Shown here in pieces: positions 9,301 to 63,983 of a stretch of 64,000 bases of DNA (position 1 is the first letter of the stretch; each line of letters begins with the position of its first letter). The DNA lies in NCBI RefSeq assembly GCF_037975245.1, contig NC_092562.1, forward strand, positions 23,861,554 through 23,925,553, given 5' to 3'. Source of the stretch: Apostichopus japonicus. Taxonomy: Eukaryota; Echinodermata; Holothuroidea; Aspidochirotida; Stichopodidae. The position numbers and the translations under genes were made by a program. The notes below the pieces were generated by a model, which ran no database searches, was not told the DNA's origin, and was given only the letters and a program-made list of their open reading frames with translations.

Positions 9301-12008
9301 CTTACTTATCAAAAGCTGAGGGACCATAAAGACCAAAGAGAGGGGGGTGGGGGGGGGGGAATCCATGAAAGATGTTAAAAAAACTGGGGAAAATGCTCAG
9401 AGGTGTTGTCACAGTGTCAAATGAAATGCTCTACATTAAAAAATAGAAACTATTGATAAGCATAAGCATAGTTCTGAATCTGTATTTAAAAGAAATATGG
9501 GAAGCATTCAAAATGGAACATGTTAGATAAAAAAAACAGTCAGAGTGTTGATGATATTAATTAGGATACTCGTGGATGGTGCTTGACCCAGGTGGTTGGG
9601 GGGGGGACATGGTAGTCTACTGGTAAAGACAAATCGTGCACACCAGCCATTTTTGACAATTTTCCCCATGCTATTACCACTCTGTACTGTACTCCAGTAT
9701 CAAGCTTCAAAGCACCTGTATTGACAGTATGAACAGTTCATAATATTTATCTGATAGAAACATGAATATTCATACTTATACATATTCATACATATATGAA
9801 TACCCAATAGAGAAACTTGGGTGTGTAGATATACTTCAAAATTAGCACACTGATCAAACCTTCGTTTTCATTTCAGGTGCTAATAAACTTACAATTTGCA
9901 ATAACAAGCTGCGCAGCAAAACACTTTTAATATCATACAATGCAACGATACCGCTGGAAGATTGCTACCTCAAGGAGTTTCCAATGCAAGGAGAAATGAT
10001 CAAGAAACCAATCCATGTCTTGCCTTTTACAATTTCGATTAATCAGAGTGCCAGCTCGATGAATTCAAGTTTTTCAGTGGAATGCTATCACCCACAGTTC
10101 AAGAAACTTTACACTGCTGGTCCGGTAATCAGTGATGAGGGTAAGAGGAGGGAGAGGTGATAAGGTTGATACCTGCAGTCACAGATAATATTTCTAGGTA
10201 GTGCTGGAAAAGAAATCAGCGATGGGGTTAAGAGGATTGGGAGGTGATGATGTTGATACCTGTAGTCACAGGTAATATTTATAGGTAGTGTTGTTAAAGA
10301 AATTAGTGATGAGGGTAAGAGGATTGGGATGTGGTGAGGTTGATACCTGTAGTCACAGGTAATATTTATAGGTAGTGTTGTTAAAGAAATTAGTGATGGG
10401 GTTAAGAGGATTGGGAGGTGATGATGTTGATACCTGTAGTCACAGATGTTATTTATAGGTAGTGCTGGAAAGGAAATTAGTGATGAGGATAAGAGGAGTG
10501 GGAGGTGATAAGGTTGATACCTGTAGTCACAGATTATATTTATAGGTAGTGCTGGAAAAGAAATAAGTGATGAGGATATGAGGAGTGGGTGGTGATGATG
10601 TTGATACCTGTAGTCACAGGTAAATATTTATAGGTAGTGCTGGAAAAGAAATAAGTGATAGGGAAAAGAGGAGGAAATTAGTGATAGGGAGGTGATGAGG
10701 TTGATACCTGTAGTCACAGATAATATTTATAGGTAGTGCTGGAAAAGAAATTAGTGATGAGGGTAATATGATTGGGAGGTGATGATGTTGATACCTGTAG
10801 TCACAGATAATATTTATAAGTAGTGCTGGAAAAGAAATTAGTAATGAGGTTAAGAGGATTGGGAGGTGATGAGGTTGATACTTGTAGTCACAGATCATAT
10901 TAAATGGTAGTGCTGGAAAAGAATAAAAAGAAAAAAAAATTACCTTTGATGACTTTGGTGGAGAAGGAGGTGTAGGTGGAAGGAACATGTTGTTGCTGTT
11001 GCACCATATTTGGAATGAATTACCTGTAGTCATCAGGCTGGCAACAAGTATAATCATTTTTTTTAAGAAGAAACTCAAGGCTTTATAAATAAGAAGGCTT
11101 GTGATGATGACATCTCTTAATTATTCCATTTTATTGTCTGAATGTTGGCTGTCCTTTACTTTTTGCCATGAGCTCTCTGCAGAGATAAGTTTTGCATAAT
11201 AAATCCTTCCTTTATTATTTACTTTGATGATTATTTTTTCAACATCAATGTAATTTAGTTTGGATGATTTTCACATTTTGTTTGACTCACTGCATCAGCC
11301 TTCTTAAATAATTTGTGAACCAAAAATAATTTGTTTGTTTGTTTGTTTCTTAATATCCATTGACAGTTTTGTTTCTTGCAGAAAATGAGCTCAAAGAATC
11401 TTTCTCCCTTGTTTCCCTTTCTTTCTCAGGTAAACAGCTTTGCGCAACAAAAAATATGATAGTCAAGGGCACAGACAACGGAGGTACTACGAGCAAAACA
11501 AAGGTCCACCAGTCATTCGTGACATACCATGTAGGACTCTTTGTAGTTTTCATAGTGGCAACAATAGTCTGCAGCGTGGCGGGAACCATCTTTCTTACCA
11601 GAAGATTGCGACTTCACCGCAGAAGACAAGGTCAAAGGTTAGTTTGATTTCTAGGTCGCTCTGTAGAATGACAAACCTGTTGAAAGTTGTGTTCATTTTG
11701 TTTTTTCAGCCATCCAGTGTTGACAAATGTTTTATAAAGTGGTAATATCCTTGCATATCTCTGATTTTTGTTTTCCAATTTTGCTGATGTCAAACACATT
11801 GCACCTTAAGGGCTCCTAATTGGTAAATGGTTCTGTCCCTTCCAAGTATAACTCGGATTATCTTCAATGTCTCTGTGGAACAGCCAACAATACTATCTTG
11901 CAGTCGTCTTTGATGAGTTGACAAATCTAATCGTTTTCTTCCAGATTGCTAGTAAATGAGGACGGAGATGAAGCTGCCTTCAGAGAGTACAGAGAAATGG
12001 AATCATAG
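6153..12008 (+). CDS. Unrecognised single-pass type I membrane protein, complete gene
   Basis: Six exons join in frame to 999 nt (332 residues plus stop): 6153-6318, 7546-7788, 8555-8608, 9877-10140, 11430-11637 and 11945-12008. The first four introns are all in phase 1, the usual arrangement for extracellular modules; the fifth is in phase 2. The N-terminus has a KKRRR cluster and then a hydrophobic stretch (about residues 17-33) that may be a signal peptide. The ectodomain has N-glycosylation sequons (HNSS, YNIS, YNAT, INQS, MNSS) and about nine cysteines. It falls into two stretches with beta-sandwich-like spacing that could be divergent FN3 or Ig folds. A transmembrane helix (HVGLFVVFIVATIVCSVAG) is followed by a basic stop-transfer RRLRLHRRR and a short tail ending EYREMES, where YREM fits a YxxPhi sorting signal. 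I do not recognise the family; a receptor or adhesion role is only a guess. The start ATG has G at -3 and +4. Confidence 0.78.
7546..7788 (+). CDS. Membrane protein gene, exon 2 (first ectodomain half)
   Basis: The acceptor is ACATTTTGACAG. The exon is 243 nt, phase 1 at both ends. It encodes LPVCADINPSPAPDK onward, with an alternating hydrophobic pattern (VLILWAHLKL, YNISIKC) typical of beta strands. The donor is ATAG|GTTAGT. Confidence 0.75.
8555..8608 (+). CDS. Membrane protein gene, exon 3 (54-nt linker)
   Basis: A symmetric phase 1-1 microexon encoding DQYSSSPCTSANWLEQE between TTTTCACAG and GTGAGA. Because it is symmetric it could be skipped without changing frame. Confidence 0.68.
9669..9790. 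repeat. Dispersed CAGTATGAACAGTTC repeat, copy 1
   Basis: Shares TTACCACTCTGTACTGT, TGACAGTATGAACAGTTC and a GATAGAAA...ATATTCATACT tail with 43452-43575 and 60408-60555. Confidence 0.75.
9877..10140 (+). CDS. Membrane protein gene, exon 4 (second ectodomain half)
   Basis: 264 nt, phase 1-1, acceptor CATTTCAG, donor GATGAGG|GTAAGA. It carries three sequons and cysteines in TICNN, EDCY and VECY contexts. The last 30 nt and the donor are repeated many times in the next intron. Confidence 0.78.
10111..10930 (+). repeat. Intronic array of about 87-bp units seeded on the exon 4 end
   Basis: About nine units of 86-88 bp follow exon 4. Each carries a version of the exon tail and splice donor; the copy at about 10302-10323 matches AGTGATGAGGGTAAGAGGA exactly. 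The remainder of each unit reads GGTTGATACCTGTAGTCACAG plus an AT-rich spacer. Other copies have changed the donor to GTTAAG, GATAAG or GATATG. The long minus-strand open frame across the array is a by-product of the repeat. Confidence 0.85.
11430..11637 (+). CDS. Membrane protein gene, exon 5 (transmembrane helix)
   Basis: A strong pyrimidine tract ending CTTTCTTTCTCAG precedes 11430; an alternative in-frame acceptor would start the exon at 11382 and add 16 residues. It encodes a short juxtamembrane stalk, the hydrophobic helix and the basic stop-transfer segment. The donor is CAAAG|GTTAGT, phase 2. Confidence 0.75.
11945..12008 (+). CDS. Membrane protein gene, exon 6 (cytoplasmic tail)
   Basis: The acceptor is GTTTTCTTCCAG. 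It encodes LLVNEDGDEAAFREYREMES and a TAG stop at 12006-12008. The acidic tail with YREM near the end suggests clathrin-adaptor sorting; this is an inference from motif form only. Confidence 0.72.
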
Positions 12009-12565
12009 CAAAGGATATGTGAAAGGAGTGACCAAAACAACAGACTGAAAATCAGACGAAACAACAGAATTAAGATATCAAAATGCCATTGAGATACAAG
12101 AAGGATGGAACATGGAAGCAAAGATGAACTCTGTAACGACACAGTTTCAAAATTTCAGGCCTAAAGACCGCAAGAGGAAGCCTATTTTTGAAGGATTTTT
12201 TTTTATGAGAAACTGTACTCAAGGTAATTAATTTTGTGGAATTATCACTCTCAATAGTTGGAATCTAGGGCAGGAAGCTCAAAACAGCATTTGGGGTTCT
12301 GTTCTAACTCAAAGAATTACCTGAAGAGGTGTAACACAGTGTTATTGTTTATATACCTGTCCAGGAAGGAACTCATACGCCAAGCTTCTATTCCGGAAAG
12401 GCATAATTCATACGTATAACCAGTTGAATGAAAAGTACAAAATGTAACACATAACATGTAAAGTACAATGCTAGATATATATCAAATTAACAATAATAAT
12501 AATGATGCTTATAACATTCGTAATTATTTGGGTATTAGTAGTAAGTTTTCCCCTCAGACACATTT

Positions 12566-12571
12566 AATAAA
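12566..12571 (+). terminator. Candidate AATAAA polyadenylation signal
   Basis: First AATAAA after the stop codon of the membrane protein gene, about 560 bp downstream. Supported only by position and sequence. Confidence 0.3.
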
Positions 12572-17134: not shown

Positions 17135-19277
17135 GTTAGCAGGTGCGTATCCAGGGGGGGGGCGTTGGGGGCGCGCGCCCCCCGGGTAAGAAAAAGAGAA
17201 GAGAAAAAAGAGAAGAAAAAAGGAAAAAAGAGGGGAAAAAAGAGGAGGAGGAGAGGAAGGAAGGGAAAAGAAAAAGAAGAAAGAGAGAAAAAGGAGAAAA
17301 GAGGGAGTAAAAGCAAAACACGAAGACACCGGGAAGAGAAAGAAGAACGGTGACATCATTACAGCGCTGAAGGGTAGCCAGTGACGGATCAATGATTTCG
17401 TAAAAGTGTGACTCACCCTACCCCTTACACCGACAACTTCATTTTTTGACGTTTCCATTTTCCTCTCTCACTAATGATCTATATATATACTACATATGGT
17501 CTATCATAACGCGTGTGTAGAATTGTGCTATGAAACCAACTGTGGCTGGTCTCGAACTCGACCGTGTCGTCGGGGAACATGACGCATTTTGGGATGGGGG
17601 CGACCGCCTGCCCCCCCCCCCATTCAGCATTTTTTTTAAATGATATCGCTAAGTAATTTCAAAATAGAAAGTGCTTAGAGGCAACTTACAAGGCCTGGGA
17701 AGTGTCATTTCCAGCGATCTGGGAGACATTTTCGGCCAAAATTTGCTTGTACGCTTCGCGCCAATCTATGGTGGCGCTACGCTTAGATAATTTGCCTACA
17801 GGCTTCGCCCCTCCCAAATTCCTCGCTACGCGCCTGTTCGAATTTGTAACGCAAACAGCAGATATCACATCATATCAGTGAACATGAAAATGGCGTTCCA
17901 GGATGAAAAGCCTCAAAACTGTCCGACTTGCCTGAAAAAATAACCAAAAATTTTCGCGCGCGAAGCGCGCGTTCAACGTGTTCGTGACAATATCATATAA
18001 GCAAGCATCGGTTATTACATCGCATGCCATCATGTACCGTACGGTCCGTTCAAATTGCGCAGTATACCGCCAAATGCTAATTTAAACAACGACATGTCTC
18101 ATGTAGATGTATAAAAAGCATGGAGGTCCAATTATGTCAAAACTCTCTTTTACATTAGTAATGGCGAATTAGGGCCTGCACCCCCGCCGCGCAGTGGCGG
18201 AGCGTCCATATGGTCAGGGGGCGGATGCCCCCTGACGGACTCAAATGGACTGCTGGCGCCTTTATCAGCTGTTTACCACTTTTTACTTATTCTAGATTAT
18301 TGACTTTTTTATTGCGCTCTCATCTACTTATTGACATTTGTCACATTTTGTTGGTGTACTGTAATTTTCTGACAAAATGGCGATGACACCTATTTATTCT
18401 TCGTTATCTGCAAATTAGCAAGGACCGGAAAGGGTCATTTCCTGCGATCTAGGGAGTATCTTTACTCAAAAATTTTCTGTACGCTAAGCGCCAACCAGTG
18501 GTGGCGCTCCGCTTAGATAGTGTCGAAAGCGCCCCTTCAGACCATTCTCGCCACTCCTGACCAATACCCCTAGCGCCGCCACTGCCGCCGCGCCTCCTAC
18601 GCCTATGTGTGTAGTGTTCGGTTTCGGAAATATCTGCTATTTTTTCATTTCCTTCAACCAAGTTTCATAATAGCCGTTATAACAGGTTTTAATATTTGTA
18701 CACCAATAAATTAACTGTGTCTGAATTTTCCAAAATTTCTGACCAACATTCTACATCACACTTCCCGCTACTCGTGCAATTTTGACCGGTCTGTTAGGGG
18801 TTGAAGGAAGTTTTTTCTGTATTGGTTGTCCATAGATGAAATTTTGTACAACATTATGGGTATGTTTTGAAGTGAGTTTTTTCACGAGAAATGTGAATTT
18901 TCAAATTCTGAACAAATATGGGGCTTAAAACCTTGAAAAGTGGGGCTGACGGGTACTGTGGGCCGCGACGTAGAATCACCTACAAAAGCAAAGACCCACA
19001 GGAGATGCGATCAGGTCGAACATGATGTGTGCCGGGTTGACAATCTTCAAAAAGGTTATAGATGGAAAAAAAAAACTATTATGAAATACTTGGTTCGAAG
19101 GCAAAAAGTGTACATCTGGTGGTCATTTCAAGCCCGAGAAGTGCCGTTTCCGGTGATCTGGGGGGTTTCAAAACAAGAAATTTTCTTGTACGCTGCGCGC
19201 CAACCGATGGTGGCGCTCCGCTTAGATAGTAATTCGCGCCCCCCGGGTTTGAAAATCCTGGATACGCGCCTGGTTAG
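17135..19277. mobile_element. Composite DNA element, 5-bp target duplication
   Basis: Element 17140-19272 (2,133 bp) begins CAGGTGCGTATCCAGG and ends CCTGGATACGCGCCTG. GTTAG flanks it at 17135-17139 and 19273-19277. Its flanks match the continuous sequence at 24495-24703, which has one GTTAG and no insertion, so the empty target is known. It contains three copies of the hairpin core module (about 17748, 18478, 19188) and internal sequences resembling other termini, so it is probably nested. No transposase is visible. Confidence 0.85.
17185..17350. repeat. Purine-rich GAAAA/GGAAG tract
   Basis: A low-complexity AG tract inside the composite element. Both the Lys/Arg/Glu-rich plus-strand frame and the Phe/Ser/Leu-rich minus-strand frames across it are compositional. 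Confidence 0.85.
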
Positions 19278-20879
19278 TGTTACTTATCATTGTGACTTCC
19301 TAGTCCTACAATGATGTGACCTCAGGTAACATTTACATTTACAGTAACATTAACTTAGTTTTAAGATAGACCCAAATTTACTAAAAAAGATACGTTAGTA
19401 TAATACAACGGCCCGGACATTTTCCAAGTATCGCGTGATCTGCGAAGTAACGAAAGCTATCTTCCATACCTTAACTCGGTCCAGTGGAAGTCATGCACAC
19501 TTACAGTGTGAATTTATTGTGTTGACTGTCACTCTCCAAACTCTTCTACATTTTAGTATCCGCTTCTACACGAAATCATTGCGATTAGGAACATTATTGC
19601 GAAGTGGGGAAGTAGAGAGTTGGTCTGTACTGAGATGGTCTCGCATTGGGTTGTGAGACTATACCAAAGAGGGCACACAATTCTTTTGACCAGTCTGAGG
19701 ATGGTATATCTATAGGTGAATGGTGATGTGGGGATATTGGTTACTACAGCACTGTGGATGGAAGGGTTAGGCTTTCGCTACCAATTAGATGCCAAACTAT
19801 CACTTAAAAAAAAAAAAATACACGTAAATGTGCCCCATAAACTAAGCACACAATAACGGTATAAATGCATTACTATGCAGTACTCATGTGAACAAACAAC
19901 CGCGTCGAACAGGTTTTACGGTAGCCTACGTAGGCAATAAATTGTGTCTCGACATAGTTTAGTTACGTAGGCTGAGAGGATAGCTCCTACGAGGGGGGAA
20001 GGAAAGTTTAAGCCTCTTGTCGAACGTTCATCACGAAATGTCAACAGTTCATCTCGGACTATCGACAGTCTAGTTCATCGCATCATTTTAACTTATTCCA
20101 CCGAAAGTATCTGACTGGGCTATGTAGTAAACACGACTATAGTGGCCCGGCCGCGAATACTCCCAAACTGAACTGACACTGAAATTATTTCCTCTATTCT
20201 GACTGGCTCTCAGCGAGCATGTGATATACTTAAGTATTCAACATGGGCCCTCCATACTCTGTCGATATCAGTATGATCAACACAAACAAATTCAAGATAT
20301 TCACATTAGCAACTTTCCAGAACTTTTGGTAGGTATATATGAACGAAATTATACAGTGTTCTTAATACAATGAAGCAACTATTCCCAGCTACTGCGCCCA
20401 TTATAGGCAGTCCTCGGTCGTTTGTTTACTCGCTTGACTCCGCTCTACACGACACGTGTAATGTAGCCTATTGTACTGCGTATAGTATACAACACAATAA
20501 AACAAAGTTCATTTGTAATTGTCAGGGGCGTAGCCAGGATTTCAAAGTTGTAGGCACGACTATCTGAGCGGAGCGCCACCATCGGTTGGCGGAAAGCGTA
20601 CAATAAAATTTTTGGTTTTACAAACCCCCCATATGGCCGGAAACGGCCCTTCCCGAGTGTTCATTCTGGTTCCCTGGCCTCATGCTAACTTGAGACACCT
20701 CATTCAATATCACTTTTAAACCAAAAAACAAACGAGTTAAAATAGTACGTAATGCAATACTACATAATGTATTTAAAATTAGCAAGGTACATGTACAGCT
20801 TCTGAACATAGATACAAAGATAGGCCAGAAATGTCTTTGATGCAACTATAGCCAGTAATTGTGTTTGATACAACTGTAA

Positions 20880-22080
20880 CTAGTAAATGTTTAAGTTAGC
20901 GGAATAATAGAAGGCGAGAGCTATCCGACGATTGCCATCTGATGCAAATTTCTTCAGCACAGAATCAACATCAATTGCAAAGTCTCTGTGGATGTCAGTG
21001 GCGTAGCCAGGATTTTTCAGTGGGGGGGGGGCGCTGGGGGACTTGACCATTTCCTGGGAGGGCGTCTTGTTACTATCTAAGCGGAGCGCCACCATGTGTT
21101 GGCGCGCAGCGTACCTAATTTTTTTAGCTAAAAGGCCTCCTAGATCGTCGGAAATGACACTTCCCAAGCCTTGTAAGCAGGGGCGTCAATCCGATTTGAA
21201 ACGTGGGAAGGGTGGGGGGGGGGACGTAATTGATTCGAGTATTCCGGCCGCGAGTACTATCTAAGCGGAGCGCCACCATCGGTTGGCTCGCAGCGTACCA
21301 AGAAAATTTCAGATTTCAATATCTGCCAGATCGCTGGAGATAGCACTTGCCAGGCTGGATAGCAGCCATCTATAGTTGCATGATTTCGGGAGAAAATTAC
21401 AAATTCGTGACTCAGGAAATCTGCAATAAAGTTCATGCGGCCTTAATTTTTGGTGGATTGTTTCTGTTATTAGCGATTCCAATTGACATCAACATGAGAA
21501 CCCAGTGCATGTTGACATATGATGCGGCGAACTGGAAACCCCAGCCCCATATTGCCCTATGTTTCAGGATAGAATACCCCTCATTTGTTCAAACCCATGA
21601 CAACTAACAATCTGTGAATAAATTTACTTCGAAATGGGCACATTATATTGCACCAAGTCGGTCAAGGAATGACCCCAGGGCATCAGATATAGGCCTATAG
21701 AAACGATGCCCCAAATTGTCCCCGGACATACTATAGGCGAAGGAAGCTATTCACCGAGACTGCATGTGCGACTGCGGTCGAAGGGTCGTTCATGAGTGGT
21801 AATCATGGATATTCGAGACCATTCAGACCAATGATATATCATTTTTCGCACATGTAATTTTTTTTCGACACCCAAAATCCCAGTGGGAGGGCGACTGGGG
21901 GGCGACAAGCTTTCATGGGGGCTGTCGCCCCCACCCCCCCCTTGGCTACGCCACTGGTGGATGTGCATGAGTGCCAAACCGCTGAGTCTCTCTTCATTCA
22001 TTGTAGAACGCATGTAGTTTTTTTATTCTGCGCATTGCGCTAAAAGACCTTTCAGCAGTTGCCGAAGCTATTGGCATGAT
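20880..22080 (-). pseudogene. hAT transposase C-terminal fragment, broken by another transposon
   Basis: On the minus strand, 22080-22021 encodes a segment with the hAT dimerisation motif ATAERSFSAMRRIK. A one-base loss then shifts the frame, and it resumes as MRSTMNEERLSGLALMHIH up to 21957. The 961-bp element 20996-21956 interrupts it. The remaining C-terminus (HRDFAIDVDSVLKKF, then NRRIALAF) continues to a TAG at 20882-20880. Removing the insertion and one 8-bp duplicate joins the halves in frame. These motifs belong to ZMYM6-like or PRKRIP1-repressor-like hAT transposases. Upstream of 22080 the frame hits stops, so the copy is dead. Confidence 0.82.
20988..21964. mobile_element. Non-autonomous hAT-like element inside a hAT transposase
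   Basis: Element 20996-21956 (961 bp) starts CAGTGGCGTAGCCAGG and ends CCAAG-less inverse GGCTACGCCACTG, with perfect 8-bp duplicates GTGGATGT at 20988-20995 and 21957-21964. It has long G runs just inside both ends. It contains two copies of the hairpin core module (about 21072 and 21257), the second beside an internal CAGGGGCGTCAA-like terminus near 21178, so it may itself be compound. Confidence 0.88.
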
Positions 22081-24703: not shown

Positions 24704-25248
24704 ATATTTCGGGAAAAGATAGTGAACATTGCCAAAAGAATGAAATGTTAGACATTATTACAATAAAGATTTTTGTAATGTAATCTTGAATGCAATTACT
24801 GAGTTCTGTTTGCTGTAGGCCTTACATAGTAATGGTAGACCCAAGCTCTAATTAAATGAAGCAAGCCTAACTAAGTCCAGCATGGTATTTTATTTTACAT
24901 TGTCTAGTAGCCAAACGTTTGGCATATTATCAAATAACTTGGTTCCTCACATTGATGATGTTACTGTTAATTTCAATGTAAATGAGATTAGGAAGCAGGG
25001 CTCGAAAATCATATGCACCGAGTCTTAGTGTTATTGTTAACTCAACCCGGACACATTAGTCACAGATACTATCTTGCCATACCCTGGGGCTTCTTCTGCT
25101 ACTCACAAATTTATAGACCATTCTGGGGTCAAACAATGTGAACTGATATCGAAAAAAAAAAAAATCCACACAGTTAATAAAAAATCTTAAGTAATCTTTC
25201 GAGATATCTCAAGAGATATTAGCTTAGCCTTCTTTCATCCCTCCAAAA

Positions 25249-38200: not shown

Positions 38201-41200
38201 TCTCAGATCTCATCATTTCAAATAGTTAGTCAATGTCAGATCTGCTTCGCTGCTTTTGTACATGGCTATCTTCGGTTAAAGAACACACATCTACTTGCCA
38301 TCATCTTTATCTCAGCACATTTCATCCCATTGTGGAGTGCAGGTTCATTCGATGTAGGAACCACTGTAGGGTACCGTTGGTGCTCTGGTGTTGGTTTTCC
38401 CATCTGAAATGGTGTTCCAAATTCTAGAAAAATCCCAAACGATGAATTTTTTCTTTAATTTGATAGCCCCCTACTAGAAATGAAATGTAAGTTACGAGCC
38501 ATTCTGCTTCTCTCACATACACATGTGGCAACTTAGCATCGTAAAGTAACTGGCCGATTACAACAACTAACACATTTCTTCCAATATTTTTACCGGTCTA
38601 GAACATGGGCTTGCTGGACGAGTTTCACAGAAAGTGTATTATCTACACAAGGGATGAGTTGAATGGACGAGGAAGCAGTGCATCCAATCATGTTAATCCA
38701 GATGCTTGTGAGTATGACTAGCATTATCTACACCAGGGATTTGTTAGAATGGATTAGGATATAGTGGATCCATTGGTATTAATTCAGATGCTTGTGAGTA
38801 TGACTAGCAGTATCTACACCAGAGATTAGTTAGAATGGATTAGGAAATAGTGGATCCAAAGGTATTAATCCTGATGTTTGTGAGTATGACTAGCATTATC
38901 TATACCAGGGATTAGTTAGAATGGATTAGGATATAGTGGATCCAAAGATATTAATCCAGATGCTTGTGAGTATGACTAGTATTATCTACACCAGGGATTT
39001 GTAAGAATGGATTAGGATATAGTGGATCCATTGGTATTAATCCAGATGTTTGTGAGTATGATTAGCATTATCTATACCAGGGATTAGTTAGAATGGATTA
39101 GGATATAGTGGATCCAAAGATATTAATCCAGATGCTTGTGAGTATGACAAGCATTATCTACACCAAGGATTAGTTAGAATGGATTAGGATATAGTGGATC
39201 CAAAGATATTAATCCAGATGCTTGTGAGTATGACAAGCATTATCTACACCAAGGATTAGTTAGAATGGATTAGGATATAGTGGATCCAAAGATATTAATC
39301 CAGATGCTTGTGAGTATGACTAGTATTATCTACACCAGGGATTTGTAAGAATGGATTAGGATATAGTGGATCCATTGGTATTAATCCAGATGTTTGTGAG
39401 TATGATTAGCATTATCTATACCAGGGATTAGTTAGAATGGATTAGGATATAGTGGATCCAAAGGTATTAATCCAGATGCTTGTGAGTATGACTGGCATTG
39501 CCTACACCAGGGATTAGTGGTATGAATTAGGATATATTGGATCCAAAGGTAGTAATCCAGATGATTGTGAGTATAACTAGCGTTATCTACACCAGGGATT
39601 CTAAGTTAGAATGGATTAGGATATTGTGGATCCAAAGGTATTAATCCAGATGCTTGTGAGTATGACTAGCAGTATCTACACCAGAGATTAGTTAGAATGG
39701 ATTAGGAAATAGTGGATCCAAAGGTATTAATCCAGATGTTTGTGAGTATGACTAGCATTATCTATACCAGGGATTAGTTAGAATGGATTAGGATATAGTG
39801 GATCCAAAGGTATTAATCCAGATGCTTGTGAGTATGACTGGCATTATCTACACCAGGGATTAGTTGTATGGATTAGGATGAAGTGGATCCAAAGGAATTA
39901 ATCAAGATGTTTGTGAGTATGACAAGCATTATCTACACCAGGGATTAGTTGTATGGATTAGGATTTAGTGGATCCAAAGGTATTAATCCAGATGTTTATG
40001 AGTATGACTAGCATTATCTACACCAGGGATTAGTTGTATGGATTAGGATGAAGTGGATCCAAAGGAATTAATGAAGATGTCTGTGAGTATGACTAGTATT
40101 ATCTATACCAGGGATTAGTTGTATGGATCAATGCATCCAACCATTTCAGACCAGTTTTGACAGCATTAATTTATATTATGTACATGAGTATAGAGAATCC
40201 TATGATTATTTTTTTGATTTGAACTTTTCTGAGAACATTTTACAAAGATTCTTGGAATTGAGATTACTGATTTCTTGCCTCCAACTCACAAAGTCCTTAA
40301 GTTTTAAATAAAACAAACCCTAAAATTGTTAAATTGTTCATGAATAAACTTGCAGTTATTTAAATTGATGACAGACAGAATGGTGAATCTAATATCAAAA
40401 CAACAGAAGTAGTGAAGACTTCCTCCACAAATGAAGATATTCAGTGAAATGATCGAGTCTCTCCTGTTTGTTTGCAGCCTTTCAACACACAGCTAAACAC
40501 CATAACTTGATGGAATACACATTCTCTAAGCTTACGTGGTGTGCGAAATGCCGAAGGTTTATGTATGGATTGGTGCAGCAGGGCCTCTACTGTAAAGGTA
40601 AAAACTTCCGAGTGTTTGAGCCTTCCTAGCGATGTGGAAAGGATGAAGCAACAGGGTTTTTTAGTTTCCATTTTACTGATGGAGATGTAACTTTCAATTA
40701 TATGATGAGGATTATTCGGCAAATAATTATAATTTTCAGTAATGTGACCATATGGCAATGAATGTTCAGAATCTCATGATATGACAAGGAAAATTCACTT
40801 ATATGACATTGAATATTCAGTTCATATGTACATGATGTTCTGTAATATGTAATCTAGTCAGTGTAGAATCGGAATTGTTGAAAATTCATTCATACAATCA
40901 TGTAATATTGATATGAAGAGACACTATAGAACCTTTATGTATGGTTTTGTCAAATTCTCTTTAGAAAGTCATTTAACAATTAATAATCTCAAAATAGTGC
41001 TGATGTATATCATGTTGTCCTTTACATTTTATTACAGTATTATTTAAATAACATATCCCAAGAAACCAAATTTTAGGCAGTACTAAAGTGTAACAATCCT
41101 AGTTCACTTTCCACTCTGTAATCATTGAATTTATTCCATAAACATGAATTGAAGCATGTTTTTCAGACCAAAACCTTTTCTCAGCTGGTGTTACACCCAG

Positions 41201-44200: not shown

Positions 44201-47200
44201 TCCATAATTTTTTCTCCAGGTGTCTCAAGAGAAGGGGACCGAGAAGCCCGGCTACTTGACTGCGTACAGAGGCTTCAGCATGCCCATCGGTCAACACTCT
44301 CTTACCTGATGGCTCATTTTGCTAGAATCTGTCAGAAGACAGACAATCAGATTCAGCCCAGACATCTCTGCTTTGTTTTCTGTCATATTCTTCTTAGACC
44401 GCCAAGAAATAAAATTTTGTGAGTAACGTTATACTGTATTAGTGTATTAGTAATGGTTATTGCATGGAACAATGCATTAAGCATTTACTAAATACAGGAG
44501 TGATGTGGTGGAGGGGGGGTTGGGGAGGATGGGGGGGAGAGGGTACATGGAATTTTCAGAGGTTAGGTGTTAGGAGTTAGGATAAGGATACTTGCTTCAT
44601 CATTTATCTTGTCACCTGACAATATCTTTTTGAATCTGTTTGGATAAGTGGTCATGAGAAATTGCCTCTACATTTTGTAATTGCAAACTAAATAATTGAT
44701 ACAACTTCCAGACAAGTTGCAATAATTTGGGAGTTTTTAACTCTTCCAAAATTACTTGCAAGACCTTAAAAGAGAATCTAATTTAGGCCGTCAAATTTCT
44801 CATTATGGAAAGTTTTGCTGTAAAATAAAGATAGTAAACCCACTGCTGCATTTATATAAAAATTTAAAATATTGAGATCATCTGGACGGACAAATATACT
44901 GTGTTGTGAAATTTGCCTTGCAGTTAAACGGCAGCCCCATGTGCTGGCCACTGTGCCTTAGTTACATCAATTTGGTTAGACCAAATCCTCCAGTTATCAG
45001 CACAACTACCTAATAGAGAAATTTGTGTGTTCAATGCATTTCGATGTAATGGCTTGTCTGTTTCATATGGAAACCGTCGATGTTTGCCGGTGTTAATATT
45101 CCGTGGGACAATTTTGGTGAACTGTATGGCACAGATCATACTTTCAGGTATCTTTCAATGGCAGTTAAGTTACAGCCCTCCTCTTACCAGACTTTTGAGA
45201 GACCATGTTATTTTGTTACTTTGTCACTTGAATGTACTTCTGAACTAGCTTGTAAGAAATATACAACATAATGATTGCAGTGTCTCGTGGGAGTTGTTGT
45301 CGTTAGCAACCAAAGTGACACCAAACCTTTTCCCGTTCCTCTCTGACAGACATGTCATTCACAATACAGACGCTCATCGGAAAATCGTACTAACTTTAAT
45401 CGAGAAGGGAGACTGGGGTGTGATTCAGCCCACACCGATACCTCCTGGTAAGAATAACTCGGTGGTCATCACCTCAACCTTTCAGGTCTCTCTTCACGAG
45501 AGCAGCTGGTTTGGTTTGTCTCGCCATCATGTACCCTCGAACAGAAATCAGTTCATGATGTACAGATTACAAATGGATTGATTTATTGATTGATTTATTC
45601 ATTTAAAGGAAGGTTTCCAGATATATCAATATTGTCAGCTTTCTTTGATCTGCTGATGTACCAGTTTACTCATACTTTCTAAAATTTTGATGGATTCATT
45701 TAATTAGACTAAAGAGTTTGTAGATATCAGAGATCCGCCATGATCTCCTGATGCACCAGTTTTATTCATAATATGGAATTGATTTATTTATTGCTTTTCT
45801 GCAGAAATTCCTGACAGAAATGCAGCGTACGCTCCGATCACTGGTGCGACCAACGGCGGGCCTAAAACCTTAGAGGAGGCAGAGTGGTACTGGGGGAGTA
45901 TATCAAGGTAAGTTGTTAACCTCAAGTCCTAAGAGTGGGCACCTTAGAAGGGCCATTCTCGGTCACGTGTGTGACGGAAAAATGGGGAGATTTGCACTTT
46001 ACCACTAAGTAACTACTTTTAGGTAAAGAAAGTTGGGTTGATTGTAGTACTTAAGTACGCACTAGGGGACTCTTTTACAAAACCATATATCTTAGCCAAA
46101 ATCAGAACATTCATGTGCTGGCAGAGGTCATAGAGGAGGCAGAGTGGTATTGGGGGAGTATATCAAGGTAAGTTATTCAAGTCCTTAGAAGGGGCACCTT
46201 AGAAGAGGCATCCTAGAATAGGGGGGCCTCAAACCTTAGAGGAGTCAGAGTGGTATAGAAGAGGCAGCAGGGAGTGGGGGGGGGGCAGGGAACGAGTTGA
46301 AGGAGACACACTAATCTCTTGTGGACATAGATGATAATTTTAGATGATAATCTCTAACAGCATTTTGTAATTAATTCATCATCTTCTGATTCTCATTTAT
46401 CTCCCTTCCCTCCATCTTTTTTCACTTGCACTTCGTAGCCACCAATATTTCACCTTCCTTGAATTTTGGGGGCTGGAAAGTTCTCGTAGAGCTGTACAGA
46501 CGTGACATTTAGGTACACTCACGATGTGTTTCTATCTCTCTTTTCTCGCTTTCCATCCCGTACATTCTTTCCTTCGATTCATTTTGCTTAGTCGCAAACA
46601 ATGAGAAATGTTACGTTTTCTCCACGTTTTAGGGAAGAAGTTAACGAGAAGCTCCGAGATATGCCCGATGGAACATTTCTGGTCAGAGATGCTGCTAACA
46701 AGTTCCAGTCTGGAGACTACACACTCACACTAAGGTAAATATCAGGTGGGATAGAGGGGGTGGGGGGATAAAGGGGGTGGGGGTGGGATAGAAGGGAGTG
46801 GGATGGGAGGGGGGATGTTCACACCCTCCCTAATTAAAGTCCCACGCCACAAAAAGAGGTTGTTATTAACCTTAAATTTTTCAATAACAGTGCTTGTTAC
46901 AACAAAGCTAATTTTGTTTCTAAGAGATTCCCATTTATAAATTAAAAAAATCTATCTAGCAAAGTCAATGGATATATTCCTTGGAAAGCCAGAATTTGCA
47001 AATACTTAAGATGAATTTTAAGTATTGTACAAGTTAGTTTTTCATCTTTGAGTATTTTTTTTCAAATCTTTTTCGGTGTGTTCTGTTTTATAGGAAAGGA
47101 GGGATCAACAAACTGATCAAGATTTACCATAAAATGGGGCATTATGGCTTCACAGAACCTTTGAAGTTTCATTCAGTGGTAGAATTGATACATCACTACA

Positions 47201-50200
47201 AGCATGCCTCCCTCAAACAGTACAACGAGAAGCTGGATGTCCGATTGCTGCATCCTGTCTCAAGGAAGGACCAGGTTAGTGGTTCATCATCCCTTCAAAT
47301 ATCCACAGCTTTACTGTAAAAGCATTATGGATAAATGATATACCCCATAATAATGATAGGGTTTCAATAGAATATTATCTACAGCAGCTGGAGGTAAGAT
47401 TACCACATCTAATCTCAAGGAAGGACCAGGTTAGTGGTTAATCCTCCCCTAAGATATCCACAGCGTTACCGTTAGAGGGGGGCATTATGGATATATGATA
47501 TACCCCATAATAAAGATAGGGTTTCTAGAGAATATTGTCTACAGAAGCTGGAGGTGAGATTACTGCATCCTGTCTCAAGGAAGGACCAGGTTAGTGGTTC
47601 ATCATCCCTTCAAATATCCACAGCTTTACTGTAAAAGCATTATGGATGATATACCCCATAATAAAGATAGGGTTTCTAGAGAATATTGTCTACAGAAACT
47701 GGAGGTAAAATTACCGCATCTAATCTCAAGGAAGGACCAGGTTAGTGGTTAATCCTCCCCTAAAATATCCACAGATTTACCGTTAAAGGGGGGCATTATG
47801 GATATATGATATACCCCATAATAAAGATAGGGTTTCTAGAGAATATTGTCTACAGAAGCTGGAGGTAAGATTACTGCATCTAATCTCAAGGAAAGACCAG
47901 GTTAGTGGTTCATCATCACAGATTTACCTTAAAAGGGGGCATTATGGCTATATGATATACAGGCATAAAGTGGTTGTTATATCATATTATAATTATCATT
48001 GTTGTTTTTATTATTATGATTATTATATGATATACCACGTAATAATGAAAGGGGTTTGTAGAGAATATCGCAGTTACTGTGACTGAAACGAACGAGACAT
48101 ACTTCTGTCCGTGATTCTAACATTTTCTTTCATTTTTACAGATGGATGTACCCGATGATATAGAAAGCCTGATAAAAACATTGCAAGACAAAAATAGCAA
48201 ATATCTGGAGAAAAACGCAGATTATGACAAACTCTACGAAGACCACAATAAATCACTGCAGGTGAGAGACCGTTTTGTTAATTAATTACTGAAGTCACCG
48301 GCAATTTGATGAGAACCAAATTTGTTTCAACAATTATTTAAACAGTGGCAATACTGACAGGAAAACTGTAAACAAATTTTACAGTGACAATTAAGAAACA
48401 TTTATTAGAGTATTATTGAAGAAACTTATTGACTGGAAACAAAACTTGAACCAGTCATCTCAGGATATACAAGATCTTGTACCTTTTCCAACTGAGCTTA
48501 ACTAGCTGTTACCTTGGTGGTGGGAGTTCCCTTGTAGCTGCTTGTTTGCTAGAAGGTGGCAGGCAGAATATAGTGCTTCCTTCTAAAATTAATGTCCAGC
48601 ATAGGTTAGCAAATGGACACTTTAACCTTTCTCTTGGCATGTGTGGTACATTGCCTTAAATAAAATAAGGGATTGGTTTTTCATCTCTATGTACCATGAA
48701 TGTTCTCTGTATGTCAAAGTACATTAATGAGTTCATATGAACGTAGAGCAAAATTTGCAGGGTATTGTTGTAAACTGTAGTTCTCTCAATTTGAAGTATA
48801 TTCCTCAGATAACATTTTGTTTGTATTTTCTATCACAATTAATTGCTCCATTGACTACTTACACACTGATTTTTAAACACTTTCCAACTTTGCCCCAGAG
48901 CGTATACAAATGTTTTTGAACTGTCATATCATAGTTACCCAGTAAGACTTTAGCCAGAAATGAGATATAGGGAAATTAATCCAGTTTGTGTAATGGGTAA
49001 ACATTTGCTGACTGGGAGGGGGGAGAGAGGTGGAGACAAGGCTCATAGTTTCAGTGATTTATATGACAGACGGTAGCATCATTTGAACTTTTCCGGGGGG
49101 GGGTGGGGACCAGGCTCTTATTTCTGTGATTCATATGCCAGACGGAAGCATTATTTGAAGCTCTTGTGGGGGGGGAGGCTATTTCATGCTCTTTAACATC
49201 AAAGGATTAAAAAAGTGATATGGATGATAAATAAACTGCATACGTGCAAAGAAAGTCACCTCTCAAAGTCTGTTGAGGCGGTCCTCAATCAGGGTAAGCC
49301 TCTGATGTGGATATACATTACTCGGTACTTACAAGAAGTACCCCGGTTAGACAACATGTTTTTTGATAAGGAAGAGCTAATCTATGCCACATAGCTTGGT
49401 GGAAAATGCCATCACAATATCTTGTTCCAAAATTAAGATATTTAATCTTTGTCTTGAAGGTGTAATTAATCTTTATGTATTTTTCCTAATATTTTTGGTT
49501 TATTTGACCTTTGACATGTGCAACAATTTGAGTTTCTTTGTTTTAGCGGTAGATATCCTCTTAAGTCAAGGCTTCATGAATATGCACTTTGTTTATCAAA
49601 GGTAATGATTTGTAGTACGTGATAAAGACATTTTCGATTACCTTGCTACGGTATGTTGCCAGAAACATTCATAAAAAAAAACATACCAAATGTTAAAGTT
49701 TATCGCTGGGATCACACATGTTATTAGGATGCGGTTACCACATATTACAAAATTGTTTTTTCTATTCCAATCATAGGAAATCAAAGTTAAGAGGCAGGCC
49801 CTGGTAGCTTTTGCAGAGACGGTCAAAGTTTTTGAAGAGCAAATTGAACTCCATATGAGGCATCATAACAATTGTCCAACACAAGAATCACAGCCGTAAG
49901 TGAAAAACTTCTGTCATGTTTGAATGTAGCTGTATGCACCGTACAGAGTAGGAAGGTAGTCTACGTTACCCCCCTCCTTCCCTTCTCTCTCTCCCTCTTC
50001 TCCCACCTACCCACCTCCCCACCCTTCCCAAAGGTGCATTTAGCTTGCTAATGCCCACAGAAGCTAGTTAACAGTAGTAGCTACTGACTAATCCTCAAAG
50101 TAAAAGCTAATCAACCCATTGGTCATTTTTACCTGAAATGACGCAGGTGTCTCAATAGGACCTAACACAGAAAGGCCGAGAAAAAGATCTGGTTCCATTT

Positions 50201-53200
50201 GGGGGATGTCAGGGCTTATAAGTGGTGTCAGTGGGTTGAGAGTTTGTCCATGTGTGGTGGGAGGTGAAATTTTGTCCTTTCCTTTTGTTGTCCAAATTCA
50301 AATTTTCCAAGGCTAAGAATAAAAGAGGGCTGTTAATGAGTGGCTTTGCAATACTTCTTTACTCCCTGGTTTATACCGCCTTTGCAACAACCCCTTCATC
50401 TTCATCGTAGACTACTACAAAACTTCCAACTGTTGAAGAATCGTCTGTTAGAGATCCAGGAGAGTCAACTAAGCCTAGAGGAAGAAATTCAGGAAGAAGT
50501 TGGCAGGAATCGAGAAAGGGACAGAGCAATGAACAGCATCAAACCACAGATAATGGAACTGAAGAAGGGTCGAGATGAAGTCATTCAGTAAGTGTGGTTA
50601 TCCATTCCCTGCCTCTTACTGGGGTACCATCTAATTGATAAACGTGACGCCATGACATGACTCTTGTGGGGGACATCAGATAAAATTGAATCCACTAGAC
50701 AGACAGATATTGATGGCATCAAAGAAGGACAAATGCAGTAGGGAAAATGGGGTTTGGAGAAATGTGGATAAGGTGACTCTTATTGAGTAAACAACCGCAT
50801 TGGTGACTCTTATTGGGTACACTACTGGATTAGGTGACTCTTAATGAGTACACTACTGGATTAGGTGACTCTTAATGAGTACACTACTGGATTAGGTGAA
50901 TCTTAATGAGTACACTACTGGATTAGATGACTCTTATATTGAGTACACTACTGGATTAGGTGACTCTTATTGAGTACACTACTGGATTAGGTGACTCTTA
51001 TTGAGTACACTACTGGATTAGGTGACTCATATTGAGTACACTACTGGATTAGGTGACTCTTAATGAGTACACTACTGGATTAGATGACTCTTATATTGAG
51101 TACACTACTGGATTAGGTGACTCTTATTGAGTACACTACTGGATTAGGTGACTCTTATTGAGTACACTACTGGATTAGGTGACTCTTATTGAGTACACTA
51201 CTGGATTAGGTGACTCTTATTGAGTACACTACTGGATTAGCTGACTCTTATTGAGTACACTACTGGATTAGGTGACTCTTATTGGGTACACTACTGGATT
51301 AGGTGACTCTTATTGAGTACACTACTGGATTAGGTGATTCTTATTGAGTACACTACTGGATAAGGTGACTCTTATTGAGTACATTACTGGATTAGGTGAC
51401 TCTTATTGAGTACACTACTGAACTAGGTGACTCTTATTGAGTACACTACTGGATTATGTGACTCTTATTGAGTACACTACTGGATTAGGTGACTCTTATT
51501 GAGTACACTACTGGATTATGTGACTCTTATTGAGTACACTACTGGATTAGATGACTCTTATTGGGTACACTACTGGATTAGGTGACTCTTATTGGGTACA
51601 CTACTGGATTAGTTGACTCTTATTGAGTACACTACTGGATTAGGTGACTCTTATTGAGTACATTACGGGATTAGGTGACTCTTATTGAGTACACTACTGG
51701 ATTAGGTGACTCTTATTGAGTACACTACTGGATTAGGTGACTCTTATTGAGTACACTACTGGATTAGGTGACTCTTATTGAGTACACTACTGGATTAGGT
51801 GACTCTTATTGAGTACACTACTGGATAAGGTGACTCTTATATTGAGTACACTACTGGATTAGGTGACTATTATTGAGTACATTACTGGATTAGGTGACTC
51901 TTATTGAGTACACTACTGGATTAGGTGACTCTTATTGAGTACACTACTGGATTAGGTGACTCTTATTGAGTACACTACTGGATTAGATGACTCTTATTGG
52001 GTACACTACTGGATTAGGTGACTCTTATTGGGTACACTACTGGATTAGTTGACTCTTATTGAGTACACTACTGGATTAGGTGACTCTTATTGAGTACATT
52101 ACGGGATTAGGTGACTCTTATTGAGTACACTACTGGATTAGGTGACTCTTATTGAGTACACTACTGGATTAGGTGACTCTTATTGAGTACACTACTGGAT
52201 TAGGTGACTCTTATTGAGTACACTACTGGATTAGGTGACTCTTATTGAGTACACTACTGGATTAGGTGACTCTTATTGAGTACACTACTGGATTAGGTGA
52301 CTCTTATTGAGTACACTACTGGATTAGGTGACTCTTATTGGGTAATACTGGATTACTTGACTCTTATTGAGTACATTACTGGATTAGTTGACTCTTATTG
52401 GGTACACTACTGGATTAGGTGACTCTTATTGAGTACACTACGGGATTAGGTGACTCTTATTGAGTACACTACTGGATTAGATGACTCTTATTGGGTACAC
52501 TACTGGATTATGTGACTCTTATTGGGTACACTACTGGATTAGGTGACTCTTATTGGGTACACTACTGGATTAGTTGACTCTTATTGAGTACATTACTGGA
52601 TTAGGTGACTCTTATTGAGTACACTACTGGATTAGGTGACTCTTATTGGGAGGGCGTTGTGGTCAAGTGGTTAAGGCAGTGGACTTGTGATCTAAGGATT
52701 ACAGGTTCGAGCCCTGGCCAGATCATTGCGTTGTGTCCTTGGGCAAGGCGCTTTATCTCCATTGCCTCTCTTCACCCAGGTGTATAAATGGGGACCTGCG
52801 AGGTAACTTGTAAATATAGTTGCGTGCGCCGGTTTGTGGCTGCACCCTATGGGAAGTCCCCCGGGGGACACGTGGTTGTGGTGCACTGTGGTGCCCCAGG
52901 AGAGATTGATTGAATTGTGCACACTTTGGTGTGTGGGTGTGACAAGTTACCAATGACCAGGGGTTAAGTTGTAAAGTCGTGTGAGGAGGCATTAGCCTCA
53001 TACAAGACTGTAAACCTTCAACTTCAACTTTAACTTTATTGAGTACACTACTGGATTAGGTGACTCTTATTGAGCACACTACTGGATTAGGTGACTCTTA
53101 TTGAGTACATTACTGGATTAGCTGACTCTTATTGAGTACACTATTGGATTAGGTGACTCTTATTGAGTACACTACTGGATTAGGTGACTCTTATTGAGTA

Positions 53201-56200
53201 CACTACTGGATTATGTGACTCTTATTGTGTACACTATTGGATTAGGTGACTATTATTGAGTACACTACGGGATTAGGTGACTCTGATTGAGTACACTACG
53301 GGATTAGGTGACTCTTATTGAGTACATTACTGGATTAGGTGACTCTTATTGAGTACACTACTGGATTAGGTGACTCTTATTGAGTACACTACTGGATTAG
53401 GTGATTCTTATTGAGTACACTACTGGATTAGGTGACTCTTATTGAGTACACTACGGGATTAGGTGACTCTTATTGAGCACACTACTGGATTAGGTGACTC
53501 TTATTGGGTACACTTCTGGATTAGGTGACTCTTATTGAGTACACTACTGGATTAGTTGACTCTTATTGAGTACACTACGGGATTAGGTGACTCTTATTGA
53601 GTACACTACTGGATTAGTTGACTCTTATTGAGTACACTACGGGATTAGGTGACTCTTATTGAGCACACTACTGGATTAGGTGACTCTTATTGAGTACACT
53701 ACTGGATTAGGTGACTCTTATTGGGTACACTACTGGATTAGTTGACTCTTATTGAGTACATTACTGGATTAGGTGACTCTTATTGGGTACATTACTGGAT
53801 TAGGTGACTCTTATTGAGTACACTACTGGATTATGTGACTCTTATTGAGTACACTACTGGATTATGTGACTCTTATTGAGTACACTACTGGATTAGGTGA
53901 CTCTTATTGAGTACACTACTGGATTAGGTGACTCTTATTGAGTACACTACTGGATTAGGTGACTCTTATTGAGTAAACTACTGGATTAGGTGACTCTTAT
54001 TGAGTACACTACTGGACAAGGTGACTCTTATTGAGTACACTACTGGATTAGGTGACTCTTATTAAGTACAAGTACTACTGGATTAGTTGACTCTTATTGA
54101 GTACACTACGGGATTAGGTGACTCTTATTGAGCACACTACTGGATTAGGTGACTCTTATTGAGTACACTACTGGACAAGGTGACTCTTATTGGGTACATT
54201 ACTGGATTAGGTGACTCTTATTGAGTACATTACTGGATTATGTGACTCTTATTGGGCACATTACTGGATTAGGTGACTCTTATTGAGCACACTATTCGAT
54301 TAGGTGACTCTTATTGAGTACACTACTGGATTATGTGACTCTTATTGAGTACACTACTGGATTAGGTGACTCTTATTGAGTACACTACTGGATTAGGTGA
54401 CTCTTATTGAGTACACTACGGGATTAGGTGACTCTTATTGAGCACACTACTGGATTAGGTGACTCTTATTGGGTACACTTCTGGATTAGGTGACTCTTAT
54501 TGAGTACACTACTGGATTAGGTGACTCTTATTGAGTACACTACTGGATTATGTGACTCTCATTGAGTACACTACTGGATTAGGTGACTCTTATTGAGTAC
54601 ACTACAGGATTAGGTGACTCTTATTGGGGGCATCAATGAAATGCATGTACTTATGCATTAGGTGGTTGTTATATCATACCTCTGATGATAAAAATCATTG
54701 TGAAGTAACACTAACTTTGATTCAATTTGCTAGTGATGATCCATTAGCTTATCACTTGCAAAATTTAAATTTCTAGTTGTGTCAATTTTAGTTCAAAGAG
54801 AATTCTGACAGTTTGATCAATCTTCTCTTCTTCCTCTACAGAATGCTGGTCGGCAAAGGTGTGAAGCAAGATCGGTTATACGACGACCTCAAGCGAGGAG
54901 AAATGTAAGTGTCAGGCATCCATTTCTTCTTCATAATAATAATAATAATAAAATCCAGCAGCGTTTGCTATCTCAGCTTTTTTGAACGGTTTGGGGTATC
55001 TGGGTGAAAACTAATATGGTGGCAGTACATCAGTCGTAACTTCTAACCTGGGTCTTCTCTCCACAGACGAGTGGATAGGTTGCGACCCGAGCCCCTCCCA
55101 CATAGCAACCAGGATCTGTGGTTCGTAGATGTCTCCCGCGAAGATGCAGAAAAGATGCTGAAAGGAAGAAAGAAGGGAACGTTTTTGATACGGAGCAGCA
55201 AAGCAGGTGGTTTTGCCTGCTCTGTGGTGTAAGTAACCCCTGCATGTAAATCTCTGCCTTCTCCCTCTCTCTCTCTTCTGGAGTCCCTCTAGGAGGGGGG
55301 TACCCAATTCCATGCAGCTGACTTTTTCCTTTTGACATCCACCTTCTAGCTTTCTTGCAGCATTTGCAAAATTAGCCACAAATAAAAAATGTGCTTTTTA
55401 AGAAAATTCAGTCAAGATGTAGCCTGGGCACGAAATCCAAAGCAGTCTGATCCACGCTAAACCCTCAGTCGGTGCCCTTGCATTAAGACTGTGACTGTGC
55501 GATTATGACAGTGTGTTATCTCAAGTGAGGTATATAAATCATGATACCCTCTGAAAGGGTGTATGTAGATCTGTATATACTACTGCAAATGATCTCAGCG
55601 TAAGGTCAGTCTGCAATCTACTGCGCAATGGTCGGTGTATCTGATCTGAAAGGAACAGAATACTACACACGACGATCTTAGCCAAGATGCCAAGAATAAA
55701 ATGCAAGCTTGGAATTTATCGTCTCAAGAAGATGAAAGATGTACGATGATGATGGTTGATACTTTCTATAAACTAATATGTAGATACCTATAACATTAGA
55801 TTACAAATATCATGCTCAAAGATGGCCTCTGCAATTGTTACAGCCAACTAAAGCTATAGAGCTGTATAGCTGTATAGCTATATATATATAGTATATATAT
55901 ATATATATATATATACTACAGCTATATATATACTATATATACTATAGCTATATATATACTATATATACTATAGCTATATATACTATATATATACTACAGC
56001 TTTATATATATCTATATATATATATATATATATATAGATATATATACTATAGCTATAGCTATGCAGCCAACTATAGCTATAGAGAAGCCTTATGCGGTCT
56101 TTCTAATGCCCTTTCTCCAAATTTCAGAAACTCCCCGCGTCGTGTAAAACCTGCATTCAACTCATTGGAGCCAGTGACTGAGCGACCCCAAAGGTTACAT

Positions 56201-58161: not shown

Positions 58162-58167
58162 AATAAA
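58162..58167 (+). terminator. Candidate AATAAA polyadenylation signal for the p85 gene
   Basis: AATAAA about 1 kb after the stop. Position and sequence are the only support. Confidence 0.28.
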
Positions 58168-62755: not shown

Positions 62756-63451
62756 CTGGGAAATAAAGAGAAAGGGGAAGTGTGTTCAGATTTCCAGGTA
62801 GTCAAAATAAAGTTCTGATGGAACTTATTAAGTCTCTCTGCCAAAAAATAAACTCAAATAAGAGACTCAGCTAGGTACAGGAAAAGAGTTGTTCTGCTCC
62901 TTTTTTTAAAATCAAAATTGAGAAACGGACATTGGCAATAGGACTAAATAGAACGTTAACTTCCCCAGCCTCGGGGTCGTCAAACTGAATCTTAAAGTGG
63001 GGGGGGGACAAAAATGACTGAACATGGATAAAACTGAAGGAGCCCATGAGCGCCTTGGCCCAAAGCCTTTATCGGGTGGGGTCCAGAGGCCTGCCTTAGG
63101 GCCCCTGATGGGTGAAGCCCTGGTGGGGCCAGGGGGCGGACTCACATCTAGACATCTTACAAGTTTGCTTCTGTTTGGTCTCTGAACTGATATGTCAGTC
63201 ATAAATATATTTTAACAAGAATGTGATTAGTTAGACTTAAGCATTAGAAAGAATTGAGAAAGAATGATCTTATGTAACATCCGGGTGTAACTTAGGGCCT
63301 GGTCAATTGTCAAACGTGTACGGCGACACTAACACATTCCTTAAAGGAATGAGGACTGGAGTTTCTTCCTTAGTAGAAACATGAATGCAGGTTAGCACCC
63401 TTCTCTTCCCCCCTCCCTTCCCAAGCCCACGTAACACAGGCCTTAATCACT

Positions 63452-63983
63452 GATATGTAGTTGTATGAACTCACCTGCATTGCTAGTAGCATTTCATGAT
63501 GTGGTACATGTATCAACTCACCTACATGGCTAGTGTTGTGTTCTGATCCATTAAAGTTAAGACAATGACAACTGTGATGTGGATGATAACTCTCGCTTAT
63601 TAATAGACACATTTCATAGGTTTCATGTCGAGAGCTGTCTACCCAATGGACGTACCTCACATTTATAACAATCATTACAGCAAGCAAGTAAGTAACATTT
63701 GATGATGTGGTACATGTATGAACTCACCTGCATGGCTAGTAAGTAACATTTGATGATGTGGTACTTGTATGAACTCACCTGCTTGGCTAGTAAGTAACAT
63801 TTGATGATGTGGTACATGAGTGAACTCACCTGCATGGCTAGTAAGTAACATTTGATGATGTGGTACTTGTATGAACTCACCTGCATGGCTAGTAAGTAAC
63901 ATTTAATGATGTGGTACATGAGTGAACTCACCTGCATGGCTAATAAGTAACATTTGATGATGTGGTACATGTATGAACTCACC
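63452..63983 (-). repeat. 51-bp array carrying a splice donor, minus strand
   Basis: Read on the minus strand, each unit ends CTAGCCATGCAG|GTGAGTTCATAC, a near-perfect 5' splice site, followed by ATGTACCACATCATCAAATG. About eight copies occur: five or six in a block from about 63715 and two diverged ones at about 63475 and 63526. The unit length is a multiple of three, so long repetitive open frames appear; these are by-products. The array lies between the 62459-62755 exon and its presumed preceding exon. Confidence 0.82.

Follow-up and report, generated by a model that had tools for sequence, protein, structure and literature searches.

We report that exon ends, together with their 5′ splice sites (donors), are copied into the introns that follow them in the sea cucumber Apostichopus japonicus. 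The stretch analysed, hereafter the window, comprises 64,000 nucleotides (assembly GCF_037975245.1, contig NC_092562.1, positions 23,861,554 to 23,925,553 of the forward strand). It contains four verified exons whose 3′ end and GT donor recur in the downstream intron: exon 4 of an upstream gene (gene 1) and exons 5, 12 and 14 of the central gene, which encodes the PI3K regulatory subunit p85. The affected exons end at 10140 (gene 1) and at 38707, 45907 and 47274 (p85), and all copies listed for their donors lie downstream. We consider it likely, with a probability of about 0.65, that these repeats are mirage-type minisatellites, a class described in amphioxus, formed by tandem duplications that are tolerated at donors and then amplified within the intron.

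Copied exon ends and their source

Copies were scored by a boundary test that takes one 80-bp query per donor or acceptor and counts copies that lie within 3 kb and extend at least 10 bases to either side of the boundary. Of the 19 p85 donors, three (exons 5, 12 and 14) yield copies with scores between 49 and 72, whereas the highest match score at the 19 p85 acceptors is 16 or less. Gene 1 has copies at one of its five donors (10140) and at none of its five acceptors, and the window total is 4/24 verified donors versus 0/24 acceptors. A reading made from the sequence alone (the sequence-only reading) had counted about five affected donors among roughly 26, the fifth at 63983 on the minus strand. 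The recurrence and four of the five positions stand; the verified count is 4/24, and 63983 is an inner copy of a larger array rather than an exon end. The repeat units are, as that reading held, mutually unrelated and do not form one family. Across the window and the genome sample described below, they measure 31, 42, 51, 70, 86, 87 and about 155-160 bp; two cases consist of spaced copies rather than arrays, at 220 bp (locus L139) and 260 bp (exon 12).

The direction of copying can be read from exons 12 and 14, whose copies carry the codons of p85 SH2 residues shared with orthologs. Because the copied residues are conserved, the exon is the source of the copies, and the earlier proposal of exon-to-intron copying at these two exons is borne out.

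Exon ends were fixed by phase-consistent splicing together with the A. japonicus proteins P0122 and P0233 and a further p85 protein, P0121, giving 19 donors and 19 acceptors in p85 and five of each in gene 1. The joined exons of the central gene match the Pfam families SH2, PI3K_P85_iSH2 and RhoGAP, and they match p85alpha in PDB at 1e-117; STAT had been a candidate for this SH2 gene and was ruled out by these matches. The gene has 20 exons whose phases join consistently, each matching P0121 or P0122. Its closest named protein is the A. japonicus model P0122, with 100% identity in most of the exons covered; P0122 does not cover exons 1, 2 and 15, and P0121 was used for the remainder. The p85 of Branchiostoma is only 52-53% identical to that of the window, which rules out amphioxus as the source of the DNA. 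The end of exon 5 that adjoins its array (38670-38707) varies in length and sequence among P0121, P0122 and a further record, P0123, while the start of the exon is conserved. Gene 1 matches A. japonicus BSL78_04924 (P0233) at 96-100% within exons and encodes a transmembrane protein of unknown family.

Donors and acceptors in the window and across the genome

Whether copied donors exceed chance depends on what is counted. Local duplications account for 14.5% of the window, and minisatellites with units of at least 20 bp are common in the genome sample (189 kb of exon loci, a few of them counted twice, hold 39 arrays). Shifting the p85 exon map along the window yields a mean of 2.75 duplicated donors, and the observed 3/19 is therefore unremarkable (P = 0.48). 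Plain overlap with duplicated DNA was rejected as proof of an excess, since shifted maps yield an equal number; within the window, the claim that copied donors are far more frequent than chance is weakened by this count. The same shift test finds three exons with a duplicated donor and an unduplicated acceptor against a mean of 0.70 (P = 0.025), and three against 1.39 when either exon edge is counted (P = 0.15).

Because the features of the window had been picked by the sequence-only reading, we took an independent sample of kinase-domain exons (Pfam PF00069) and myosin-head exons (PF00063) from anywhere in the A. japonicus genome (671,581,487 bases, 35 contigs). We used 97 of 134 kinase matches, picked by eye on a span favouring multi-exon genes with their flanks unread (16 of 30 loci were left out, and locus L060 repeats part of L045), and the best 40 of 70 myosin matches. 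With a donor weight matrix and a separate, ad hoc acceptor score, donors were callable in 83/97 kinase and 34/40 myosin exons, and acceptors in 80/97 and 35/40.

Boundary-spanning copies were found at 5/83 kinase donors and 1/34 myosin donors, and at 0/80 and 0/35 acceptors, respectively. Combined, the sample gives 6/117 donors (5.1%; five strong cases and one weak) versus 0/115 acceptors (Fisher two-sided P = 0.029). The recurrence seen in the window thus extends to kinase and myosin donors elsewhere in the genome. When the weak case (L084) is removed and the near-identical genes L048 and L049 are counted once, the figures become 4/116 versus 0/115 (P = 0.12); adding the window, which is not an unbiased sample, gives 8/140 versus 0/139 (P = 0.007). 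The affected loci are listed with the features of the window in Table 1.

Loci L048 and L049 lie about 3.3 Mb apart on contig C11, where their near-identical kinase exons both carry a 70-bp donor-spanning array with differing copy variants. Since both exons carry it, the array is probably older than the duplication that produced the two loci.

Table 1. Copied exon ends, arrays and related features in the window, followed by affected loci of the genome sample (a slash marks the exon end)
Feature	Position	Strand	Basis or remark
Gene 1 exon 4	9877..10140	+	P0233 99% over 9876-10148; annotated junction ..ISDEG-KQLC..
Gene 1 exon 4, last ~28 nt with donor AGG/GTAAGA, first array copy		+	donor test
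Gene 1 exon 4 array, 87 bp x9	10112..10923 (x9 at 10127-10923)	+	
p85 exon 5	38602..38707	+	P0122 100%, P0121 87.5%, phases
p85 exon 5, last 70 nt with donor CTT/GTGAGT, first array copy		+	
p85 exon 5 array, 86 bp, 17.4 copies	38638..40128	+	
p85 exon 12, start of nSH2, donor AAG/GTAAGT	45805..45907	+	
Copy of exon 12 end, donor and intron start	46131..46214	+	source 45871-45959, offset +260, 85% over 89 columns
Second, partial copy of exon 12, 35 bp, without donor	46221..46255	+	source 45855-45889
p85 exon 14 (nSH2), donor CAG/GTTAGT	47094..47274	+	
Exon 14 end array, 155-160 bp, 4.4 copies	47228..47960 (the 4.4 copies, about 160 bp, at 47228-47917)	+	
In-frame 117-nt pseudo-exon ending at decoy donor	47624..47740	+	within model P0122
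p85 exon 15	48142..48261	+	kept in P0121 and P0123, absent from P0122
51-bp array	63687-63995, with two outlying copies 63466..64000	-	inner part of larger array
L022			strong; 31 bp x16
L048 and L049, near-identical genes			strong; 70 bp, at least 10.8 copies
L088			strong; 42 bp, at least 17 copies
L139			strong; one copy at 220 bp, 95.5% over 156 columns
L084			weak case

Origin of the arrays and competing explanations

The intronic copies resemble one another more than they resemble the exon from which they derive. Their mutual identity is 0.884 in the array of gene 1 exon 4, compared with 0.804 to the exon copy, and 0.909 compared with 0.825 in the array of p85 exon 5; in the exon 14 array the difference is less clear (0.870 versus 0.848), and the copy at 47589 is the most like the exon. 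The stages seen run from a single copy, at exon 12 and L139, up to 17 copies or more. Taking exon 12 and L139 as the initial duplication stage, we infer a sequence of duplication, drift and intronic amplification. A local tandem duplication would copy a few dozen to about 200 bp across the exon end and the intron start, leaving the authentic donor in the upstream copy and a new copy that is intronic and usually harmless. The intronic copy would then drift, and the intronic copies would be amplified by unequal exchange or slippage, with the exon copy held by coding constraint and largely outside homogenisation. A duplication crossing an acceptor would create, upstream of the exon, a competing AG and would probably be removed, leaving the donor-only pattern.

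Several observations weigh against tolerance as the whole account. A pure tolerance filter predicts no excess of donors over the intron interior, yet the donor rate of 5.1% exceeds that of random mid-intron points, 1.6% of which (55/3425) lie in the first copy of a repeat; 63/3425 lie in a last copy (first and last copies, respectively: 48 and 39 of 2425 points in kinase flanks, 7 and 24 of 1000 in myosin flanks). The absence of copies at acceptors (0/115) falls below the last-copy rate, although not significantly (P = 0.12). A looser map from whole-locus self-alignment flags 2/61 acceptors (L088 and L091), and the array at L091 ends 21 bp before its acceptor. Counted by side, the looser map gives downstream-only duplication at 3/64 donors (4 with any) and at 137/8614 controls, and upstream-only duplication at 0/61 acceptors (2 with any); it was dropped for the 80-bp test because gapped extension blurred the edges of arrays.

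The excess over mid-intron positions would follow directly if a mutational process were seeded at 5′ splice sites, for example by transcription-linked structures at the exon-intron junction, such that donors gain duplications more often than other intron positions. The excess is about threefold and only marginally significant: P = 0.012 with all six cases, 0.041 without the weak L084, and 0.12 when L048 and L049 are also counted once. In the window, seeding at donors accords with the donor-only exons of the shift test and loses that support once either exon edge is counted. Genome-wide, pairs of the perfect donor motif CAGGTAAGT spaced 20-50 bp apart occur at 99 places, compared with 76 for the motif read backwards; the 99 places form 29 clusters in a hand-condensed list, a few arrays dominate, and the count neither proves nor excludes a donor excess. 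We judge donor seeding unlikely, while keeping it as a serious contender. A broader form of the idea is also no better than a tentative proposal: a process directed to 5′ splice sites, not to acceptors and less to the remaining intron, would equip about one in twenty donors with a self-made array, so that minisatellites repeatedly arise at the exon-intron boundary and keep supplying decoy donors and new exons. Arrays with CAGGTAAGT in their units are found at C2:28048938, C8:23173809, C9:2047527 and C17:905383.

Selection retaining arrays of U1-binding sites, as decoys or as protection against premature polyadenylation, had been offered by the sequence-only reading and is not supported by the comparison of copies. 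It would explain why the GT is kept in 15/16 intronic copies of exon 5, 4/4 of exon 14, the single copy of exon 12 and 8/8 copies of the minus-strand array within the window, but gene 1 keeps it in only 2/8 aligned intronic copies (a count that includes the copy at 10663, absent from the alternative dinucleotide count of 2/7). Nor is the GT singled out where it is kept: 39/85 dinucleotides of the exon 5 array are retained at least as well, as are 65/86 in gene 1. Column agreement in the arrays of gene 1 exon 4 and p85 exon 5 is as good as or better than at the donor in 70/79 and 65/78 windows, respectively; the corresponding proportions that match or beat the donor are 13/147 in the exon 14 array and 5/43 in the minus-strand array, the only two in which the donor ranks among the better-conserved parts. 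Donors bearing these arrays are of ordinary strength in the sample (mean 8.99, n = 5, versus 8.44, n = 112). The evidence does not point consistently to selection for U1 sites, and we consider this explanation improbable.

It is very improbable that the arrays are raw material for new exons or introns, with decoy donors and AGs within the units coming into use. The case for such use is model P0122, in which array sequence forms an in-frame 117-nt exon with a decoy donor at its end, and from which exon 15 is missing. The model has the appearance of an automated prediction, none of the p85 exons identified in the window accounts for its first 115 residues, and the pseudo-exon is probably a gene-prediction error. 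P0121 and P0123 join the p85 exons normally and retain exon 15; with records of 4.7 and 3.8 kb, too short for a gene of about 25 kb, both presumably derive from complementary DNA. An assembly artefact can be set aside with greater confidence still. Tandem repeats are error-prone, but the intronic copies differ from one another by about 9-13% on average, and a copy from the exon 14 array also appears in a gene model of another record, which would represent another assembly. In addition, the genome agrees in size with a PacBio HiFi assembly reported at 671.6 Mb on 23 chromosomes, with a mean read of 14.7 kb (PMC10344927), and the pattern occurs at nine separate places: four in the window, a probable exon at 65109, L022, L048/L049, L088 and L139.

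Relation to known systems and other repeats

The sequence-only reading knew of no described system of this kind; the mirages of amphioxus match it. Mirages are minisatellite-like repeats over exon-intron boundaries in the amphioxus genes for Adh, troponin C, the globins BflGb6 and BflGb9, and PGBD5, with units of 10-160 bp and many copies that carry splice signals, at both 5′ and 3′ boundaries (PMC3087553, PMC3902484). The globin paper calls the mechanism unclear, notes that edge copies escape homogenisation, and takes the Adh3 data and globin reverse-transcription PCR to suggest that splicing is not disturbed (PMC3087553). The A. japonicus repeats likewise span the exon-intron boundary, have units that differ between genes and measure 31 to about 160 bp, and leave the edge copy, here the exon, outside homogenisation in gene 1 exon 4 and p85 exon 5 and less clearly in exon 14. 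They differ from the amphioxus mirages, found at both 5′ and 3′ boundaries, in that they occur at ten donors (4/24 in the window, 6/117 in the sample) and at no acceptor in the 80-bp test. They also belong to another phylum and reach about 28 copies.

Two other systems come close. In the Rogers model, described for ATP2A1 and the potato RdRp, an intron is gained when a segment carrying AGGT is duplicated in tandem (PMC4974935), and there, as here, a gene acquires additional splice signals through such a duplication. Under that model the duplicate becomes a new intron, whereas the A. japonicus copies sit within an existing one. Intron gain between duplicated AGGT segments was not encountered in p85, where the exon set explains the joins and the copies lie inside existing introns; gene 1 joins are likewise explained, with its copies within an existing intron. 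Ordinary intronic minisatellites share with these arrays their unit size, copy number, higher-order periods and homogenisation, but here the first copy is functional coding sequence with a working donor. Intronic minisatellites are also mentioned in a paper on earthworm metallothionein.

Mirages themselves are thus already known from amphioxus; the new elements are the phylum, what may be a bias towards donors, and a first estimate of frequency, about 5% of the donors sampled. Mirages in sea cucumbers or any other echinoderm were not reported in the literature listings searched, which left out most subscription papers, or in passages of three A. japonicus genome papers. That an echinoderm carries them at this rate, while the same test shows none at acceptors, points to a general side effect of minisatellite formation that splicing can accommodate on one side only. 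The arrays offer a natural test of how the splicing machinery selects one donor among near-identical ones; they also give rise to errors in gene models, the p85 model probably among them, and open a path to new exons that can be tested.

Upstream of 63983 on the minus strand, the sequence still belongs to the array. The 51-bp array runs more than 1.1 kb past the window edge, reaching about 65143 with 28.5 copies, and its start lies within a probable exon with the acceptor ..ttttcag/ACATC, an open frame and the donor CAG/GTGAGT at about 65109, a call resting on these splice signals and the frame. The reference copy at 63983 was first treated as an exon copy, and exon-versus-intron figures are void for this array. 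No named homolog was found for the gene concerned (gene 3).

The window holds further repeats. A 31-bp array of more than 100 copies fills most of p85 intron 17 (50765-54626) and touches no exon; in the output of Tandem Repeats Finder it is divided at about 52648 and 53036. An 18-bp array at 41416-41687 (15 copies, 98% matches) stops some 70 bp short of the p85 exon 7 acceptor, on its upstream side. At 25248-25400, direct copies of a 14-bp repeat flank a block of its own reverse complement. Similar translated stretches with RQPMVALRLDS-like words recur at about 17657-17881 and 18937-19314 on the plus strand and at 20445-20660 and 20880-21185 on the minus strand, which suggests a dispersed repeat family.

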